From positions 1 to 31,611 of the IMG/VR virus record IMGVR_UViG_3300046001_002113: a stretch of 31,611 nucleotides of DNA; one strand, 5' to 3'. Every line of letters begins with the position of its first letter. Within the stretch, counting starts at the first letter, position 1. The translations under genes and the position numbers were made by a program. Below, piece after piece: positions 4,275 to 31,611 of the stretch. A model generated the notes under the pieces. The model searched no databases. It saw nothing but the letters and a program-made list of their open reading frames with translations, and had not been told where the DNA came from. The stretch comes from a virus.

Positions 4275-6133
4275 TGCCTTATTTCATTACAGACAAATCA
4301 CCTGATTGTTCAGGTTGGGCAACCGTCAAGGAAGATGGTGAAGTGATTGGTTGCCACACCACGAAGCAGGATGCGATTGATCAGATGGTTGCTGTGTCGA
4401 TTGCTGAGGATATGGAACCTGGTGGTGAACGTGCGTTGCCAGATAACTATCGTCCAGCGTTGGCTTCTGATGTTCCTGAAGGTCGAGCATGTGGGAACTG
4501 TCACTACTACAACGAAGACATGATTCAAGAAGATGGCAAAGAGCTGAAAGCGTATTGCATGAAGTGGGATGCGTATGTTCTTGGCGGTTGGTATTGCAAC
4601 GCTTGGAAACCCCACGAAGAAGAAGACTTTGATGATGTAGCGGAAGATGTCATGGACGATGAGGAGCGTCAGGTGTCGTTGGATGTTCCTGTGTATATTC
4701 GTTCGGCTGCTCGCAAGGGTTTGGATTACTACGGCCAAGGGTTGGCTGGTGACGGTTTGGTTGATCGGACTGTGCGTGAGGCACGGGACATGGCTAGAGG
4801 TGAGGTCACTGAAGACAAGGTGATTCGCACGAACGCTTGGGGTGCGCGTCATCTTGTGGATTTGGATGCGCCAAAGAACTCTGATCCTGATGACAAAGAG
4901 TTCCCTGGTGCCGGTGCGGTTGCGTTCTATCTGTGGGGCATCAACCCACTCGACCCTGAACCTGCGATGAACTGGTTTATGTCTAAGGCTGAAGCGATCA
5001 AGGCTGAACGCGCTGATGCTCCTGCCCCACCGAAGGATCAGATCACGGGATCAGATAAGAATCCTGTTGGGTCTGCCAAGGCTCCTGCTGGGTCTAAGAC
5101 GATTGAGTTGTCAGAAGCCATTGAGACAGGTTTGACAAACAAAGCCAAAGAACACAACGATGAGGTTGGTGACAACCCTGGCAAACGGGCAACGGTTGGT
5201 ATGTTGCGCACAGTGTTCCGTCGAGGAGCTGGAGCGTATTCAACTTCTCATCGTCCAGGTGTCACCCGTGATCAGTGGGCTTATGCAAGGGTTAATGCGT
5301 TCTTGTATTTGTTGCGTAACGGAAGACCCGAGAATGATAAGTACATCGGTGACAATGATCTTCTTCCGAAGTCGCATCCGAAGTCCTCTAGATCGCTTGG
5401 CTATTTTGGTACTAGCATTGGCGACATGGACTCAACTGTTGAAACACGTCGCATCACATCAAACGACTTTGAACTTCGTGCCGATCCAAAAGGTAACGGG
5501 ATGTCGTTCACAGGTTATGCAGCAGTGTTCAACTCTCCTTCAGAACCGTTGCCATTCATTGAACGGATCATGCCAGGCGCATTCTCAAAGTCCCTCAAAT
5601 CAAAGAACAATGTGCGCATGTACATGAACCATGATTCGAGCATGCTTCTTGCCACCACCCGTGCGAAAACACTGCGACTATCTGAGGACTCCAAAGGCTT
5701 ACTCGTTGACGCTTCGTTGCCTGATACTTCCATTGGTCGTGACCTATCGGTGTTGATGCAACGTGGAGATGTCAACTCGATGTCATTCGGTTTCACTGTT
5801 CCATCTGGTGGCGATATGTGGTCTGATGATGGTCAGTCCCGTGAACTGCGTCAGATCAAACTGTATGAAGTCAGCGTTGTCACAGGGTTCCCAGCCTATG
5901 CAGCCACAACCGCAGCAGTCAGGTCGCTCGATGCCCTTGCTACTCGCACAGGGATAGACGCAGATCATCTCGCAGCCGCGATCACCAACCTAGAATCTGG
6001 TCAAACATTGTCGCAAGATCATGCGATGTTGTTGCGTGAAACTGTCGCCAAACTTGAACCGGTGCAGGATGCTGCACCAGCTCGTCTCGGTGTCATGGCG
6101 AAGCACCTTGATTTATTGAAGACCATCGCCTAA
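4274..6133 (+). CDS. Multidomain prohead protease (HK97 gp4/S78-type) with N-terminal Cys-rich and middle domains
   Basis: A 619-aa protein with three parts. Residues 1-120 carry MPYFITDKSPDCSGWATV and a four-cysteine site (C74, C77, C95, C108; CGNC...GGWYCNAW) that could bind metal or an iron-sulfur cluster. Residues ~135-370 contain YIRSAARKGLDYY and a conserved-looking basic domain (KRATVGMLRTVFRRGAGAYS...RDQWAYARVNAFL). Residues ~393-550 are the prohead protease, with catalytic His in MNHDSS (H453) and Ser in NSMSFGF (S504), as in HK97 gp4. The protease trims the capsid protein delta domain in the immature head. HK97 gp4 alone is near 225 aa, so about 390 extra residues precede it. It lies directly before the capsid gene. 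Confidence 0.85.
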   Translation: MPYFITDKSPDCSGWATVKEDGEVIGCHTTKQDAIDQMVAVSIAEDMEPGGERALPDNYRPALASDVPEGRACGNCHYYNEDMIQEDGKELKAYCMKWDAYVLGGWYCNAWKPHEEEDFDDVAEDVMDDEERQVSLDVPVYIRSAARKGLDYYGQGLAGDGLVDRTVREARDMARGEVTEDKVIRTNAWGARHLVDLDAPKNSDPDDKEFPGAGAVAFYLWGINPLDPEPAMNWFMSKAEAIKAERADAPAPPKDQITGSDKNPVGSAKAPAGSKTIELSEAIETGLTNKAKEHNDEVGDNPGKRATVGMLRTVFRRGAGAYSTSHRPGVTRDQWAYARVNAFLYLLRNGRPENDKYIGDNDLLPKSHPKSSRSLGYFGTSIGDMDSTVETRRITSNDFELRADPKGNGMSFTGYAAVFNSPSEPLPFIERIMPGAFSKSLKSKNNVRMYMNHDSSMLLATTRAKTLRLSEDSKGLLVDASLPDTSIGRDLSVLMQRGDVNSMSFGFTVPSGGDMWSDDGQSRELRQIKLYEVSVVTGFPAYAATTAAVRSLDALATRTGIDADHLAAAITNLESGQTLSQDHAMLLRETVAKLEPVQDAAPARLGVMAKHLDLLKTIA

Positions 6134-6150
6134 CATCTGTTCACTGCATC

Positions 6151-11764: not shown

Positions 11765-12055
11765 ATGAAAATCGCACTCAGTTTGACTAGTGCATTAGAT
11801 GGCAAGCAACGAACAATCGTTGCTGCATTCCCAGACTTCATTGCGTTTGAAAATAAATACAATCGCAGTGTTGCCAAGTTTGAAGCCGAACTCACATTGA
11901 CTGATCTTGCATACCTTGGATGGCATGCAGAACATCGGTTGAAGAAGACAGGTTTGGACTTTGATTCTTGGTGCAATGAGATTGAAGCACTCGAAGTGGG
12001 AGACAGCGCAGACGCAGTGATCGTCCCTTTGGGGATCAGTCAGCCCACTGGGTAA
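11765..12055 (+). CDS. Tail assembly chaperone, short product
   Basis: A 96-aa protein, the zero-frame product equivalent to lambda gpG. Its size, its place between the tail tube and tape measure genes, and the -1 frameshift site near its end identify it. Residues include RTIVAAFPDFIAFENKYNRS and LTDLAYLGWHAEHRL, typical of actinophage chaperones. It would bind the tape measure protein during tail assembly and not remain in the virion. A good SD (GCGGAGGTAAAG) precedes ATG 11765. About 5-10 % of ribosomes would be expected to shift in related systems, but this is not measurable here. Confidence 0.85.
   Translation: MKIALSLTSALDGKQRTIVAAFPDFIAFENKYNRSVAKFEAELTLTDLAYLGWHAEHRLKKTGLDFDSWCNEIEALEVGDSADAVIVPLGISQPTG
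12025..12031 (+). promoter_or_regulatory. -1 ribosomal frameshift slippery heptamer
   Basis: In the chaperone frame the codons read gtC CCT TTG, so CCCTTTG is an exact X XXY YYZ heptamer (CCC, TTT, G) eight codons before the zero-frame stop. Slipping back one base opens a 47-codon frame with the expected chaperone extension sequence. A short palindrome, TCTCGC-TT-GCGAGA at 12063-12076, lies ~32 nt downstream and could act as a stimulator or be incidental. Confidence 0.85.
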
Positions 12056-12174
12056 TTTCGTATCTCGCTTGCGAGACAGGAATTGCACCTTCAGTGTTGC
12101 TGGCAGAAGAACCACGAATGCTGTTCACAATGTTGGCGTACCTTCGATGGAGAGCCATTCATCTAGGCAAGTAG
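12031..12174 (+). CDS. Tail assembly chaperone, -1 frameshift extension
   Basis: Read in the -1 frame from position 12031, this segment encodes GDQSAHWVISYLACETGIAP and then SVLLAEEPRMLFTMLAYLRW, ending at TAG 12172-12174. This matches the known C-terminal extension of actinophage chaperone fusions (…IAPSVLL…PRML.TMLAYLRWR). It has no start codon of its own at the right place, so it is made only as a fusion of about 136 aa with the 11765 product, like lambda gpGT. The T-like part recruits tail tube subunits to the tape measure. Confidence 0.85.
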   Translation, partial: GDQSAHWVISYLACETGIAPSVLLAEEPRMLFTMLAYLRWRAIHLGK

Positions 12175-12184
12175 TATCGGTTGC

Positions 12185-12757
12185 ATGGCACGACCAGTCA
12201 CAGGCACAAGTCGTGCAGGAACATTTCGTTCAAACATTCAGAACGATGCACCGGTACAGATACTCGGTATCACCGAATATCTGAGGGCGGAATCTAAAGC
12301 CAATCCGTTGTTCAACAAATACTTGCGCATCGCCGCACAAGATGTTGCAGAATTATTGGTTGTTGCAGCGAAGTTTGAAGCTGCTTCGATAACTCGTAAT
12401 CGTCAAGCGATGGAAGTTATGAAGGGGATGAGAGCAAGACGTGATCGTGTCCCAACTATCAAACTTGATGAGAACTCGGCGTTCCAATCAACTTCAAGAA
12501 AGTTCACTTCTTCTCGCAACCTTGACACTGGACGCAGGGTGAAGCGGAAGGTGACCAGGGGTGACGTGTTCTTTGGTGCGGAGTTTGGTGGTGGGGCGCG
12601 TCCTACCACTAGACAATTCTTGAGGCATCGAGGACGGTCTGGGTACTTCTTCTGGCCTACTGTGCGCAAACACAAGGGGGATATAGCTGACGCATATTTG
12701 GGTGCCATTCAGAAGGTGTTGGATCAACTGGCTGATACCCCCACAAATAGTGCTTGA
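12185..12757 (+). CDS. Neck/tail completion protein (HK97 gp10-like, tentative)
   Basis: A 190-aa basic protein. The N-terminus contains KYLRIAAQDVAELLVVAAKF and the C-terminal part GAEFGGGARPTTRQF, RHRGRSGYFFWPTV and a final helix, a layout I associate with actinophage head-tail joining or minor tail proteins of the HK97 gp10 type. It begins 11 bases after the chaperone extension. Its stop codon lies inside the -35 hexamer of the promoter for the next gene, so a new transcription unit begins at its end. The precise role is uncertain. Confidence 0.6.
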   Translation: MARPVTGTSRAGTFRSNIQNDAPVQILGITEYLRAESKANPLFNKYLRIAAQDVAELLVVAAKFEAASITRNRQAMEVMKGMRARRDRVPTIKLDENSAFQSTSRKFTSSRNLDTGRRVKRKVTRGDVFFGAEFGGGARPTTRQFLRHRGRSGYFFWPTVRKHKGDIADAYLGAIQKVLDQLADTPTNSA

Positions 12758-12781
12758 CTTTGCCTCGGGGTTCGCTACCCT
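12754..12781 (+). promoter_or_regulatory. Promoter for the primase-like gene in the tail module
   Basis: TTGACT at 12754-12759 and TACCCT at 12776-12781 are separated by 16 bp, a good fit to an actinobacterial housekeeping promoter (TTGAC-, TAnnnT). They are followed by GTAGGTAGGGAGG and ATG 12800. The -35 box overlaps the stop codon of the previous tail gene, the arrangement expected for a moron inserted in an operon. Confidence 0.6.
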
Positions 12782-12799
12782 GTAGGTAGGGAGGCGTTC

Positions 12800-13528
12800 A
12801 TGGTTGTCTATTTTGATTCGGTTAAGTCTGTTCAGCCGAAGCCGTTCGCCTCTAATTGGGTTGACCTCAAGGAACGCTTGATGCACCATGAGGAGAACGC
12901 ACACAAATCTGATGGTGCGTTGTGGTCACCTGTTGAGTACTACCCAGGTAGGACTCGCGGTAATACTGCGATCAGGTTCATTGAAGCGTTGGTGGTTGAC
13001 ATGGACGGTGAATCATTCGCCAACGCCAACCTTGACGGGTTTGAGTATCTTGCCTATTCCACGTATTCGCATCGACTAGATGACCCTCACTACCACTTGG
13101 TTCTGCCACTCGCTGAGCGTGTACCGGCAGGGCTGTGGCGAGCTGTGTGGGCTGAGTTGCATGAACGACTCAACCTACAAGGTGACCCTGCAACCAAAGA
13201 CGCTGCACGTATCTTCTACCTTCCACAACATGCACCAGATCAGCCGTTCGAGTTCCACGAACAATCAGGTGCATTCATTGACACGAACTTCGATTACCAA
13301 CCTGTAATCAATCCGACACCTGCGTCACCACGTCAGTCTGCTCAGCCTCGACGCAAGCGCACTGTTCGTGTTGAGATGAATGATGCTTGGTGGGATGCTG
13401 CTGAGCCTTCTACCAGATATTCACATCTTGAAGGTCAAGCGATGTGGAAGGCAATGGCTGATGATTTCCGTGTGATGGTTGCCGAGTACAGGGAAGCTGT
13501 GCGCTTGGCCAGTCAGGATGTCATCTAG
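12800..13528 (+). CDS. Archaeo-eukaryotic primase (AEP)-like protein
   Basis: A 242-aa protein that carries the three signatures of AEP-type primases: a strand ending in two aspartates, EALVVDMDG (D67, D69); a His-containing strand YSTYSHRLDDPHYHLVLPL (residues 87-104); and DPATKDAARIFYLPQ (129-143, D134). The rest (linker rich in Pro/Arg, C-terminal helix with WWDAAEP and YREAVRLAS) is not recognised. There is no helicase domain. It would synthesise primers or act in initiation of replication, yet it is encoded between the neck protein and the tape measure, with its own promoter and SD (GGGAGG). A second, larger primase lies at 29766. Alternative: a degenerate plasmid-type Rep primase with another use. 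Confidence 0.72.
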   Translation: MVVYFDSVKSVQPKPFASNWVDLKERLMHHEENAHKSDGALWSPVEYYPGRTRGNTAIRFIEALVVDMDGESFANANLDGFEYLAYSTYSHRLDDPHYHLVLPLAERVPAGLWRAVWAELHERLNLQGDPATKDAARIFYLPQHAPDQPFEFHEQSGAFIDTNFDYQPVINPTPASPRQSAQPRRKRTVRVEMNDAWWDAAEPSTRYSHLEGQAMWKAMADDFRVMVAEYREAVRLASQDVI

Positions 13529-13537
13529 AATTGCCGC

Positions 13538-15706
13538 ATGGCTGGCGAACGTACCTTTGTTGTCAAGTTTGTTTCTGACATTGCTGGTGCAACCAAAGGC
13601 ATCAAGAAGGTTGGCGATGATCTAGGTGGGATGGGGAGCAAACTTGGCTCTGTCCTTCCATCATTCAAGACAATGGCTATTGCAGGCACAGCAGCCTTTG
13701 GTGCCGTTGCTGCTTCATCGTTGAAGTTGGTTCAGATGGCTTCCAACTTGGAAGAATCACAATCCAAGGTCAATGTGGTTTTTGGTTCTTCAGCAAAGAT
13801 TGTCAACGACTTTGCTGAAACTTCTGCCAGGTCGTTCGGTATCACGAAGCAGGCCGCGCTAGAAGCGACAGGAACATTCGGAAACTTGTTGCAGGCATTC
13901 GGTACTGGTCAAGGTCAAGCAGCCGAGATGTCAACGACTTTGATTGGCTTGGCTGCTGACTTGGCTTCATTCAACAACACCGGCATTGAGGATGCGATCC
14001 AAGCGTTGCGTTCAGGTTTGTCTGGTGAAACTGAACCGTTGAAAAGATTTGGTGTTGCACTGAATGATGTGCGATTGAAACAAGAAGCAACGACTCTTGG
14101 TTTGTATGACGGCAAAGGCGCATTGGATATTAACGCCAAGACTCAAGCAGCCTACGCATTAATCCTCAAGGACACAGGTTTGGCACAAGGCGACTTTGCT
14201 CGAACCTCTGATGGGTTCGCCAACCAGATGCGAATCTTGAAGGCATCATTGAGCGATGCTGCAACCGAACTCGGTTTGGTCTTATTGCCTTATTTCAAAA
14301 CATTTGTCAAGTTCATCAACGACAACATTGTTCCTGCGGTGTTGGCATTCTCCAACACGATTGGTGAGAAAGGTCTTGTGCCTGCATTGGCTGCTGGTGT
14401 GGCAGCGATGGGGGAGTTCGGTATCACTACCGTCAATGTCCTCGAAGGTTCGTATGTTGCATTGCTCAACTTCACACATGACCTATCTAAGACTGTGCGT
14501 ATTTTGGCTGATGCTGCTGCACTTGGGTTTGGTTTGCAAGGCAACATTGTTGGTGCTGGTAAGTCGTTGGCTGTTGCTGTGGCCATGTCCAAAGTGCAGG
14601 ATGCAACAAATGAGGCGTTGTCTGGTGCCGGTGCAATGTTTGATGGTTTCCGTGCGAAGGTTTATGCTGCGCAGTTGCAGATTGCTCAGATGGGCAAACC
14701 ACCAAAGGATGTTTCAGACTCGTTGGATCGTATGGCTCAATCAACCAGATCGGCAACTAACAGTGTCACAGCGTTTGTTCCTGTGGTCAAAGAATTAGGC
14801 TCAGGTAGTGGTGGTGCAGCCAAGAACATAAAGACTGCTACGGAGAAGTTGAAGGAATATACGGATGCGTTGAAGTCGAGTAACTCTGCACAGAAGGCGT
14901 TCACTGCTGCGCAGAAGGCTTCGGTGCAGGCTGGTCAGTCGTTGACGGCTGCGAACCAGGGTGTGGCTGATGCTGAGGCTGCGTTGGCTAAGGCGGTTGC
15001 TGGGTTCGGTGCTGATTCTCCTGAGGCGAAGAAGGCTGCGAAGGATTTGGAGTTGGCTCAGCGTGGGTTGACACGTGCTGGATATGCCGTTGAGCAATCG
15101 TTGTTTGCTGTGTCTGATGCTGAGGCTGCGTTGGCGAAGGTTCGTGCTGATCCTCTGTCAACTCCTCAAGCGATTCGTGAGGCTGAGATTGATTTGGCTG
15201 AGGCGAAGTTGTCGAGTGCTGATGCGATTGATGCGCAAGCTACAGCGACTATTGATTTGGGTACGGCACAGGGAACATTGAATGAGAAGGTCAGTGGTGC
15301 GTTGACGGATTCTGAGACTTACAAAACTTTGACTAAACAGTTGAAGGATGCGAAGATCGACCAGGCTACTGCGACTGTTGCTGTGACTGAGGCGATTGAA
15401 GATGAGGCTGAGGCATTCACAGCGTTGAAGGATGCGATTGAGGCTGCTGGGAAGGTTGCTGCGTTGTATCCAAAGATTGTGGCTGCGAATCCGATGGCTG
15501 GTGCTGCTGCAACAATCCCTGCAACGGTGACTGGTAACTCGACTGGTTTCAATCCGAATGCTGCTGGTGGGCTAAGCCCTACTATCAATGTGAATGCTGG
15601 TCTGATTAGTGACCCAGCTACGTTGAGTCAAGAGATTTTTGACTTGTTGAAAGGGTATGGAAGGCTTAATGGTTCCGATAGTTTCTTTGGCAAGGTAACC
15701 CTTTAA
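13538..15706 (+). CDS. Tape measure protein
   Basis: A 722-aa protein, the longest complete gene, whose length should set tail length (about 1.5 Å per residue would give roughly 110 nm). It starts FVVKFVSDIAGATKGIKKVG with a hydrophobic stretch TMAIAGTAAFGAVAAS, then the conserved N-terminal tape measure block ESQSKVNVVFGSSAKIVNDF, FGNLLQAFG and FNNTGIEDAIQALRSGLSGE. Residues ~420-640 are Ala-rich coiled coil. Within it an exact 20-bp repeat, encoding DAEAALA, occurs at 14969 and again at 15116. No peptidase domain is seen. The stop overlaps the next ATG (TAATG). No SD is evident before ATG 13538. Confidence 0.92.
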   Translation: MAGERTFVVKFVSDIAGATKGIKKVGDDLGGMGSKLGSVLPSFKTMAIAGTAAFGAVAASSLKLVQMASNLEESQSKVNVVFGSSAKIVNDFAETSARSFGITKQAALEATGTFGNLLQAFGTGQGQAAEMSTTLIGLAADLASFNNTGIEDAIQALRSGLSGETEPLKRFGVALNDVRLKQEATTLGLYDGKGALDINAKTQAAYALILKDTGLAQGDFARTSDGFANQMRILKASLSDAATELGLVLLPYFKTFVKFINDNIVPAVLAFSNTIGEKGLVPALAAGVAAMGEFGITTVNVLEGSYVALLNFTHDLSKTVRILADAAALGFGLQGNIVGAGKSLAVAVAMSKVQDATNEALSGAGAMFDGFRAKVYAAQLQIAQMGKPPKDVSDSLDRMAQSTRSATNSVTAFVPVVKELGSGSGGAAKNIKTATEKLKEYTDALKSSNSAQKAFTAAQKASVQAGQSLTAANQGVADAEAALAKAVAGFGADSPEAKKAAKDLELAQRGLTRAGYAVEQSLFAVSDAEAALAKVRADPLSTPQAIREAEIDLAEAKLSSADAIDAQATATIDLGTAQGTLNEKVSGALTDSETYKTLTKQLKDAKIDQATATVAVTEAIEDEAEAFTALKDAIEAAGKVAALYPKIVAANPMAGAAATIPATVTGNSTGFNPNAAGGLSPTINVNAGLISDPATLSQEIFDLLKGYGRLNGSDSFFGKVTL

Positions 15707-22950: not shown

Positions 22951-23223
22951 ATGGAACCAATGACAGACAGAAACAAGGCAGGCTGGATCATCGCATTCAC
23001 ATTGATTGGATGGATGTTCTTCTTGTTACCAGGTGGAGAAGACATCAACCAGCCAGCACAAGGCGAACCTACACAACGAGCATGGACTATTTGGGTCATC
23101 ATCAACGTGATCCTTCTAATCAAAGTTCATTTGTTGGTTAGTCGTGAGCATCGTGCAGCTAAACGATTCAACCGTGCAATGCAACGGGCAAGAAAACTGC
23201 ACCCAACATGGCGCAATGACTGA
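22951..23223 (+). CDS. Two-segment membrane protein
   Basis: A 90-aa protein from ATG 22951, preceded by AAAGGAGGG; a longer frame from 22900 would include that SD and is rejected. Hydrophobic segments are GWIIAFTLIGWMFFLLPGG and AWTIWVIINVILLIKVHLL, then a strongly basic tail (REHRAAKRFNRAMQRARK). It has no recognised family. As an early membrane protein beside an exported lysozyme it may act in superinfection exclusion or membrane takeover (inference). It overlaps the WhiB gene by eight bases. Confidence 0.65.
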   Translation: MEPMTDRNKAGWIIAFTLIGWMFFLLPGGEDINQPAQGEPTQRAWTIWVIINVILLIKVHLLVSREHRAAKRFNRAMQRARKLHPTWRND

Positions 23224-23512
23224 GGTTCATGTAGTTGAAAGTTGGTCTGAAGGCGCACATGTCTTCAGACCAACACAACCACAATGGATGATTCAAGCCA
23301 AATGCAAAGGGCAAACAGAACTGTTCTTCAACGAAGGCAACAGCATCTATGTTCGTGCAGCAAAAGTTATTTGTGGCACCTGCCCTGTTCGACGTGAATG
23401 CTTGGCGTTCGCAATGAAGAACGATGACCAAGGCATTTGGGCTGGGACATCAACGAACGAGCGTGAACGCATCAGGCGTTCTTTACGCAAGAACATTAGG
23501 GTGTTGTCGTGA
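23216..23512 (+). CDS. WhiB-family iron-sulfur transcription factor
   Basis: A 98-aa protein with the four WhiB cysteines C30, C53, C56 and C62 (AKCKG, then CGTCPVRREC) and the G(I)WAGTS turn at 73-79, followed by a basic helix (NERERIRRSLRKNIRV). WhiB proteins bind a 4Fe-4S cluster, dock on the SigA sigma factor and alter promoter choice; they occur only in Actinobacteria and their phages, which identifies the host phylum. It probably redirects host transcription early in infection. Start ATG 23216 is chosen because the longer frame from 23144 would read through the preceding gene. It overlaps the next gene (GTGA). Confidence 0.93.
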   Translation: MTEVHVVESWSEGAHVFRPTQPQWMIQAKCKGQTELFFNEGNSIYVRAAKVICGTCPVRRECLAFAMKNDDQGIWAGTSTNERERIRRSLRKNIRVLS

Positions 23513-29765: not shown

Positions 29766-31611
29766 ATGACAACACTAGATACAGCACTCGCCTATACACG
29801 ATTAGGTATCAGAGTGGTACCAATCAAACCTGGACACAAATACCCTGGGATTGACAACTGGCAGAACCTCGCCACCGATGACACCGATGTGGTCACATCA
29901 TGGTTCACTGGTGACTACAAGAGCTACGGAATCGGTATCGCTACAGGTCGCACCAAACACGGACAGATATTTGTGGTCGATGTGGACGATAGGGATGAGT
30001 ACCGAGGGTCAGACACTTTGCACGACTTGGAGCAGCGTTACGGTGCGTTACCTGAAACGGTCACAGCAATTACCGGCACAGGAGGACAACACCTGTACTT
30101 CTACTCACCGGTTGAGGTACGGAATGATGCTGGGTCACGGCTTGGTGTGGGGTTAGATATTCGTGGTGAGGGTGGGCAGGTGTTAGCTGCACCGACAACA
30201 CATCCGAACGGCAAGCAATACCAGTGGGTTGATGGTTGGTCGCCTATGGAGAAACGGCCTGCTAACGCACCACAGTGGCTCCTAACGCTTCTCACCACCC
30301 AACCAGCCATGATCAAGCCCCAAGGCACAACAGACCTGTTCCTAGCTGACCCAACCACCCCGTCTGCTCGATACTGTGCGCAGACAACTTGGGAGCAGCT
30401 CCTCATCCCTGACGGCTGGACATTGGCAAAGACTGACCGACATGGTGAACAGCATTGGACACGACCAGGCAAAGACACCCGTGATGGCATCAGTGCCACC
30501 ATTGGACACAACGGCAACGATGCACTCATCGTGTTCACCTCAACCATCCCCTGGCTACCAGAAGGTGGCTACAACAGGTTTGGCTACATGGCTGCACGTG
30601 ACCACAACGGAGACTGGAAACAAGCAGCCAAAACCTTCCTAGCCCACAACACCACCCCAGCCGACACCACCATCATCACCCCCGACGAAATGCTCGACAT
30701 GCTCGTTGACTGGAAAACCTTCTGGAACCAAGACCACATCGTCGAAGACTGGATCGCCAAACCGTTGATCGCACGGGCAAGACAAACAGCCCTCTTCGCA
30801 GGAGCCAAAACAGGCAAGAGTTGGCTCACCCTCAATGTTGTTGCAGCCCTAGCCACAGGCAAACCAATCCTCGGACACCCACCCCAAACCCAAGTCCACT
30901 GCCTCTACCTTGACTACGAAATGGTTGAAGCCGACCTCTACGAACGCCTAGAACAATTCGGCTACACAGAAGACGACGACCTCTCACACCTCCACTACGC
31001 ACTTATCCCATCCCTACCACCACTCAACACAGCAGAAGGAGCCTCAGCCCTGATGCGCCTCTGTGAGCTGACCAAGGCTGAAGTGGTAGTGATAGACACC
31101 ACAGGACGAGCCATCGAAGGTGAAGAGAACTCTGCTGATAGTTATCGTGAGTTCGCCAGGACAACAGGACTCGGCCTCAAACGTGCCGGTATCGCCTGTG
31201 TACGCACAGACCACGCAGGCAAAGACGGTGGCAAGAAGCACGGCCAACGAGGCTCATCAGCCAAGAACGACGACGTGGACATCGTGTACCGATTAGACAA
31301 GACCGATGACGGACTGATGCTTGTACGCACCCACACACGGATCAGCTGGGTACCAGACAAAATAGACCTCATCGTCGAAGACATAGACGACATCACCACC
31401 ATCAGACAACGCACCAGAGCGACCAAAGGATGGACAGTCCAAGAGATAGACCTAGCCAAACACCTAGACACACTAGGCATCCCCAAGAACGCTGGAGTCA
31501 ACGAAGCGCAACGCATCGCCAAAGAACTTGGTGCCAAACTCGGACGCAAATCTGTACTCAGCCGAGCCATCCAATGTCGCCAACTACCCTCACCTGACCC
31601 CCTTCAAATCT
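29766..31611 (+). CDS. Bifunctional primase-polymerase with RepA-like helicase domain (3' partial)
   Basis: The ORF is open from ATG 29766 to the window edge (615 complete codons, no stop). The N-terminal prim-pol domain has GIRVVPIKPGHKYPGIDNWQ, FVVDVDD (D72, D74), GTGGQHLYF (H109) and LDIRGEGGQVLAAPTTHPNG (130-149). The middle is a RecA/AAA ATPase with Walker A GAKTGKS (346-352), HCLYLDYEM (378-386), VVVIDT (440-445) and HAGKDGG, as in RepA-type hexameric helicases. A winged-helix-like end starts near 555. It should unwind and prime the phage replication fork. The start is supported by position rather than by a clear SD. The C-terminus is missing. Confidence 0.9.
   Translation, partial: MTTLDTALAYTRLGIRVVPIKPGHKYPGIDNWQNLATDDTDVVTSWFTGDYKSYGIGIATGRTKHGQIFVVDVDDRDEYRGSDTLHDLEQRYGALPETVTAITGTGGQHLYFYSPVEVRNDAGSRLGVGLDIRGEGGQVLAAPTTHPNGKQYQWVDGWSPMEKRPANAPQWLLTLLTTQPAMIKPQGTTDLFLADPTTPSARYCAQTTWEQLLIPDGWTLAKTDRHGEQHWTRPGKDTRDGISATIGHNGNDALIVFTSTIPWLPEGGYNRFGYMAARDHNGDWKQAAKTFLAHNTTPADTTIITPDEMLDMLVDWKTFWNQDHIVEDWIAKPLIARARQTALFAGAKTGKSWLTLNVVAALATGKPILGHPPQTQVHCLYLDYEMVEADLYERLEQFGYTEDDDLSHLHYALIPSLPPLNTAEGASALMRLCELTKAEVVVIDTTGRAIEGEENSADSYREFARTTGLGLKRAGIACVRTDHAGKDGGKKHGQRGSSAKNDDVDIVYRLDKTDDGLMLVRTHTRISWVPDKIDLIVEDIDDITTIRQRTRATKGWTVQEIDLAKHLDTLGIPKNAGVNEAQRIAKELGAKLGRKSVLSRAIQCRQLPSPDPLQI

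Follow-up and report, generated by a model that had tools for sequence, protein, structure and literature searches.

Freshwater phages of a large and mostly uncultivated group encode, among their tail genes, a small standalone protein with a predicted AEP (primase-polymerase) fold, whose gene carries a conserved promoter and ribosome-binding site of its own. We propose, with moderate confidence, that this protein acts as an auxiliary priming or polymerising enzyme beside a larger Prim-Pol-helicase. The phages have genes for two AEP enzymes but for no DNA polymerase of family A, B, or C. Abundant freshwater phages would in this way retain a replication-type enzyme within their structural operon, as a cassette that drives its own expression. 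The window, by which the whole analyzed stretch of 31,611 nucleotides from IMG/VR record IMGVR_UViG_3300046001_002113 is meant, holds the gene (242 aa) at positions 12800-13528 on the + strand, and its characterization combines a profile match to phrog_9765, an AlphaFold model, Foldseek searches, and dN/dS analysis.

The protein had been described as AEP-like in an earlier note on this DNA on account of the motifs VVDMDG, PHYHLVLPL, and DAARIFYLP, all of which are located within the ORF at 12800-13528. Structure prediction, the check named in that note, confirms the fold at the level of the model. While an AlphaFold alignment with 20 close relatives gave a pLDDT of 33, a diverse alignment including distant relatives from viral contigs raised it to 82.6, with residues 1-160 mostly above 90. 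The top PDB match of this model in Foldseek is the AEP domain of the cyanophage S-2L PrimPol (6ZP9, E = 7e-5, probability 1.00). No other PDB hit falls below 0.001; LigD polymerase and CAPP Prim-Pol come next (E 0.02-0.3), and RepB' trails them. AEP enzymes account for the first 14 PDB matches, and the named matches in the viral library are mostly primases, primase-helicases, and VirE-type proteins. In sequence searches, the product matched phrog_9765 (DNA primase) at 3e-16; Pfam, NCBIfam, and PDB returned nothing useful, Pfam being without any match. A search of Rfam for an RNA element and a search for tRNAs found none.

The predicted active site is strongly conserved across the 79 members compared. 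Motif I, D67-M-D69 (12998-13006, + strand), contains a predicted metal-binding pair of aspartates, each invariant in 79/79 members, as are D134 and R137 of motif III (13199-13210, + strand). Also invariant in all 79 are R53, N55, S90, D129, T132, K133, Y140, P142, W198, and a few others. Motif II, H97-Y98-H99 (13088-13096, + strand), is HYH in 35 of the 36 tail-module members and HFH in the remaining one, in contrast to the KFR of all 43 other members, the form of the standalone primases of T4-like phages. In AEPs, motif I usually reads hhhDxD/E, motif II sxH (or a basic residue), and motif III hD plus an Arg. The protein therefore presents the AEP pattern of a DxD in motif I, an H-x-H in motif II (in the tail group), and an Asp plus an Arg in motif III. 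A candidate steric-gate tyrosine, Y47 (12938-12940, + strand), is Y or F in 79/79 members and is likened by spacing to Y63 of S-2L PrimPol. The catalytic residues of the latter are E85/D87, H118, D146, and R157, with Y63 as steric gate (PMC8065100), and D67/D69, H99, D134, R137, and Y47 plausibly correspond to them, the catalytic residues being matched by spacing. Apart from this best structural match, the two proteins differ: S-2L PrimPol is a long protein in which PriCT-2 and a VirE-type helicase domain are fused to the AEP domain, has E-x-D where the small protein has D-x-D, and shares 12% identity with it.

The closest sequence relatives outside the tail modules are standalone "DNA primase" proteins of about 310 aa, found by tblastn on phage genomes plus two further scans; the clade of the small AEP itself was gathered by several scans. 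In the Vibrio phages henriette 12B8 and V6Aob, the primase gene adjoins helicase and UvsY genes, and in the Kyanoviridae phage C48C1 it lies near a DNA polymerase gene. The phrog_9765 profile matches the Vibrio and cyanophage proteins at 1.5e-94 and 2e-39, and the orthologues of the window's protein in loci L097 and L148 at 1e-18 and 4e-14. Both kinds are short separate proteins of the same PHROG with an AEP core, and they share the invariant DxD, TKD..R, R-x-N, and W198 positions as well as local similarity near the first helix of the C-terminal domain. They differ in motif II (KFR-type against HYH), in length (229-242 aa in the tail-module proteins), and in setting, since the neighborhood of helicase, UvsY, or polymerase genes is replaced throughout the tail-module clade by that of the neck and tape measure genes. 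The tail-module AEPs form one clade on a long branch (support 95/98). Some 65 residues are missing from the helical C-terminal domain seen in their relatives, of which a variable helix at residues 212-239 (13433-13516, + strand) would be the remnant. In the relatives, this domain is thought to help initiation. Because it is incomplete here, the small AEP is filed as a truncated relative of phrog_9765 and not as a full member. Taken together with purifying selection on the gene (dN/dS 0.15 and 0.25), the sequence comparisons describe an intact-looking gene whose product is a variation on a known family of standalone phage primases, being truncated and of the HYH type.

The promoter of this gene consists of a -35 box TTGACT (12754-12759, + strand), which includes the TGA stop codon (12755-12757) of the upstream neck-type gene, and a -10 box TACCCT (12776-12781, + strand), of the form TAnnnT, at a spacing of 16 nt. 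Taken alone, the match in this one sequence is weak: TTGAC-N17-TANNNT occurs once in 31.6 kb, where about 0.7 occurrences are expected by chance. It is the conservation across 186 related loci, sampled as the regions upstream of AEP orthologues in IMG/VR contigs, that leads us to call the promoter real. At the best-scoring site, the -35 box is TTGACT in 169, TTGACA in 9, and TTGATT in 6 (184 of the 186 regions), the spacer is exactly 16 in 185/186, and the -10 box is TAnnnT in 186/186, with six different middles (TACCCT 155, TAGGGT 17, TACTGT 5, TAACCT 5, TATCCT 3, and TAGCCT 1). A score of at least 8 of 9 was reached by 179/186 loci and by 21/930 shuffles. The SigA-type promoter overlapping the previous stop codon, as first noticed in the single sequence, is thus both present and conserved. 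The strong Shine-Dalgarno noticed with it, AGGGAGG (12788-12794, + strand), is followed by the ATG of the gene and has the strongest anti-Shine-Dalgarno pairing (-10.9 kcal/mol) when approximately 30 of the window's main gene starts are compared.

The position of the gene is as constant as its promoter. In the window, its left neighbor is a conserved neck-type gene (neck190, 12185-12757, + strand), whose L147 homologue is weakly similar to phrog_5 (tail completion/Neck1, E = 0.007), and its right neighbor is the conserved gene for the tape measure protein (TMP; 13538-15706, + strand; phrog_1535, 4e-26). Among about 190 loci with the gene, it always lies between these two wherever the contig is long enough to tell, and it was never found at another site. 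When loci were instead sampled by the neck protein, the gene was present in 76 and missing from 5, all of them from one lineage (L147/L406-L410), which comprises four contigs from four metagenomes, L147 and L408 being an identical contig. What this lineage retains is a -35 box TTGATT and the 3' end of the AEP gene, TGAAGTAG, which includes TAGAAT and is followed by the TMP start; the -10 box is gone together with the gene. Such a junction is a deletion scar, and the absence is therefore most simply a secondary loss. In the outgroup, formed by phiPsal1 and four contigs, the neck and TMP genes overlap by 1 bp with no AEP gene between them.

The simplest history is a single insertion of promoter plus gene, followed by long retention and one observed loss. 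The moron-like insertion suggested in the earlier note agrees with both ends of this history, namely the outgroup with its overlapping genes and the inner lineage that lost promoter and gene. Constant presence with the tail genes in all relatives, which the note would have counted against its reading if joined to a structural role, was not observed: almost every relative has the gene at this locus, but the outgroup and one inner lineage do not. Over deep divergences, it is coinherited with the tail genes (r 0.75-0.83). The small AEP is thus neither a transient passenger nor needed for building the virion. A structural role in virions, considered in the same note as evidence against its reading, is judged unlikely because the gene is dispensable, as the L147 lineage demonstrates.

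The comparison with phage morons holds in several respects: this is an extra, dispensable gene that brings a promoter along and separates two genes which in relatives lie side by side. Unlike morons, it is not followed by a terminator, its end lying only 9-13 nt from the TMP start, it is fixed at one site in the clade, the phages are apparently non-lysogenic, and the neighboring genes bear promoter-like elements of their own. A TAnnnT hexamer stands 6-7 nt before the start codon of the neck gene in 166/166 loci and of the TMP gene in 186/186. Before the neck gene, the element is TAGTAT in the window (12172-12177), overlapping the stop codon of the upstream gene, and TAGTAT, TAGTCT, TAATCT, or TAGTGT across loci. 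Before the TMP gene it is TAGAAT (13526-13531, + strand), formed by the AEP stop codon plus AAT, 6 nt ahead of the start, and found in 186/186 loci and in the AEP-less lineage too. Given that the stop codon itself provides the TA of these hexamers, the independent evidence consists of the fixed final T and the fixed distance. Both genes have almost no Shine-Dalgarno. Leaderless messages are common in actinobacteria, and elements of this kind are their signature, so that TAGTAT and TAGAAT may serve as leaderless-type -10 boxes. Readthrough of the TAG to give an AEP-TMP fusion was also considered and discarded: the two genes share a frame in 174/181 loci but differ in the remaining 7, and a -10 box is the better account of TAGAAT, since a TAnnnT precedes the neck gene too. 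From their sequences, the neck, AEP, and TMP genes seem to be three successive genes each with its own promoter, among which only the AEP gene has a near-consensus -35 box and a leader with a strong Shine-Dalgarno. With such elements at both neighbors, a promoter of its own is not unique to this gene here and is a less telling sign of a moron. The cassette is independently backed by the insertion history and by the loss of the -10 box along with the gene in the AEP-less lineage.

The window also encodes the second primase with helicase that had been noticed at 29766, now identified as a Prim-Pol (PF09250, 7e-40) joined to an AAA_25 helicase-type domain (29766-31610, + strand, open at the end of the record). 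Although both are AEP enzymes of the same genome, this one belongs to another Pfam family, is a helicase-type fusion, and is encoded in the replication module. It was found in the window and in every other AEP-carrying record longer than 30 kb, as well as in two records below that length, and is absent from phiPsal1. No DNA polymerase of family A, B, or C was detected in nine AEP-carrying records of about 30-35 kb (G000-G007 and G011); the recognized nucleotide polymerases of these phages are therefore their two AEP enzymes. The hosts are probably actinobacteria, judging from the ORF at 23144-23512, which we take to be a WhiB-type gene, and from the Pontimonas host of phiPsal1. The latter has been described as lytic (PMC6106888). 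The AEP-carrying phages are apparently lytic as well: a search of related records, some of which may be incomplete, turned up neither a tyrosine integrase nor a serine recombinase.

In the mechanism that we favor, the small AEP is a relative, and probably a descendant, of standalone DNA primases encoded by large phages, and an ancestor of this actinophage clade would have gained the promoter-plus-gene cassette once, exactly between the neck and TMP genes. The promoter, being of the host housekeeping-sigma type, and the strong ribosome site would allow strong expression without a phage activator. D67, D69, and D134 most likely bind two metal ions and the nucleotide, with the HYH motif and R137 nearby. 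A metal-dependent primase or polymerase is the most likely activity, judging from the conservation of the active-site residues and from what the relatives are. The protein would then make or extend short primers where phage DNA is single-stranded, assisting the Prim-Pol-helicase as a helpful but dispensable enzyme that takes no part in building the virion. The earlier suggestion of a role other than fork priming is not borne out, the nearest sequence relatives being phage DNA primases encoded among replication genes. On the other side, the C-terminal domain is truncated, the change from KFR to HYH may mean a different chemistry, the phage already owns a Prim-Pol, and one lineage manages without the small AEP.

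The main rival to the auxiliary enzyme, though an unlikely one, is an AEP associated with the virion, which would be loaded into the tail or head through a C-terminal segment matched to the neck protein and TMP, delivered with the DNA, and used to prime or repair the incoming genome. Its late-gene placement, at a fixed site between neck and TMP, could point to a virion-linked role, and so could the way its C-terminus covaries with the neighboring proteins. Among the 46-60 loci of group 1, this segment tracks the neck protein (r about 0.6) and the N-terminus of TMP (r about 0.6-0.75), but the correlation is far weaker (about 0.0-0.3) for the AEP core, which lies between neck gene and C-terminus; the pattern is present at both the amino-acid and third-position level. 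The link between neck and AEP C-terminus is repeated in a subgroup of 14 loci. However, a subgroup of 45 loci with proteins of 236 aa shows no excess covariation of the C-terminus, which makes one of three subsets without the effect, and pure linkage may be the cause; the C-terminus adjoins the TMP gene, so that linkage can explain part of the signal. The dispensability of the gene in the L147 lineage also argues against this role. The more specific proposal that the C-terminal segment is co-adapted with neck and TMP, so that a primase/polymerase rides in the particle and starts DNA synthesis at once in slow-growing freshwater actinobacteria, we consider quite unlikely.

A factor for host takeover or exclusion, expressed early from the host-type promoter and interfering with host replication or with competing phages, would suit a dispensable cassette with a strong Shine-Dalgarno outside the replication module, but it likewise appears unlikely. 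The small AEP matched none of the PADLOC defense models at E up to 1, no relatives were confirmed in 84,980 bacterial and archaeal genomes, and no integrase was found in the relatives searched, which makes protection of a lysogen improbable and leaves the defense role once suggested for this gene without backing; its nearest relatives are, moreover, phage primases among replication genes. A catalytically dead AEP that binds DNA or nucleotides as a regulator, for instance of the late tail operon, would agree with the truncated C-terminal domain, the unusual motif II, and the location at a cluster of three promoter-like elements. We regard it as very unlikely, as the predicted metal-binding and nucleotide-contact positions are invariant, and motif II, now H-x-H, is close to the usual AEP sxH and not decayed. 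Satellite-like replication, another suggestion of the earlier note, or a decayed remnant could draw on the unusual presence of a second primase per genome and is extremely improbable. The relatives are whole phage genomes in which the structural and replication modules are complete, and on this ground the satellite reading was rejected; about 190 loci have the gene in intact form and under purifying selection, neither a helicase nor an origin module adjoins it, and its site is always the same.

If the auxiliary enzyme that we propose is active, it would represent a compact natural primase/polymerase of about 240 aa in which the helical C-terminal domain is incomplete, and thus a means of studying how this domain contributes to primer initiation. 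It also raises the question of why a second primer-making enzyme should be expressed from the tail region.

Two further elements were observed in the structural region of the window. A tail assembly chaperone is probably produced by -1 frameshifting from a 96-aa ORF at 11765-12055 with the slippery sequence C CCT TTG at 12025-12031; its conserved -1 frame, SAHWVISYLACETGIAPSVLLAEEPRMLFTMLAYLRWRAIHLGK, ends at the TAG at 12172-12174 and is also open in L097, L148, L180, and L012, and in phiPsal1 after an A-run. A second promoter-like site, TTGATT-17-TAACAT at 6108-6136, lies ahead of the gene for the major capsid protein and is also found in the related record G007.
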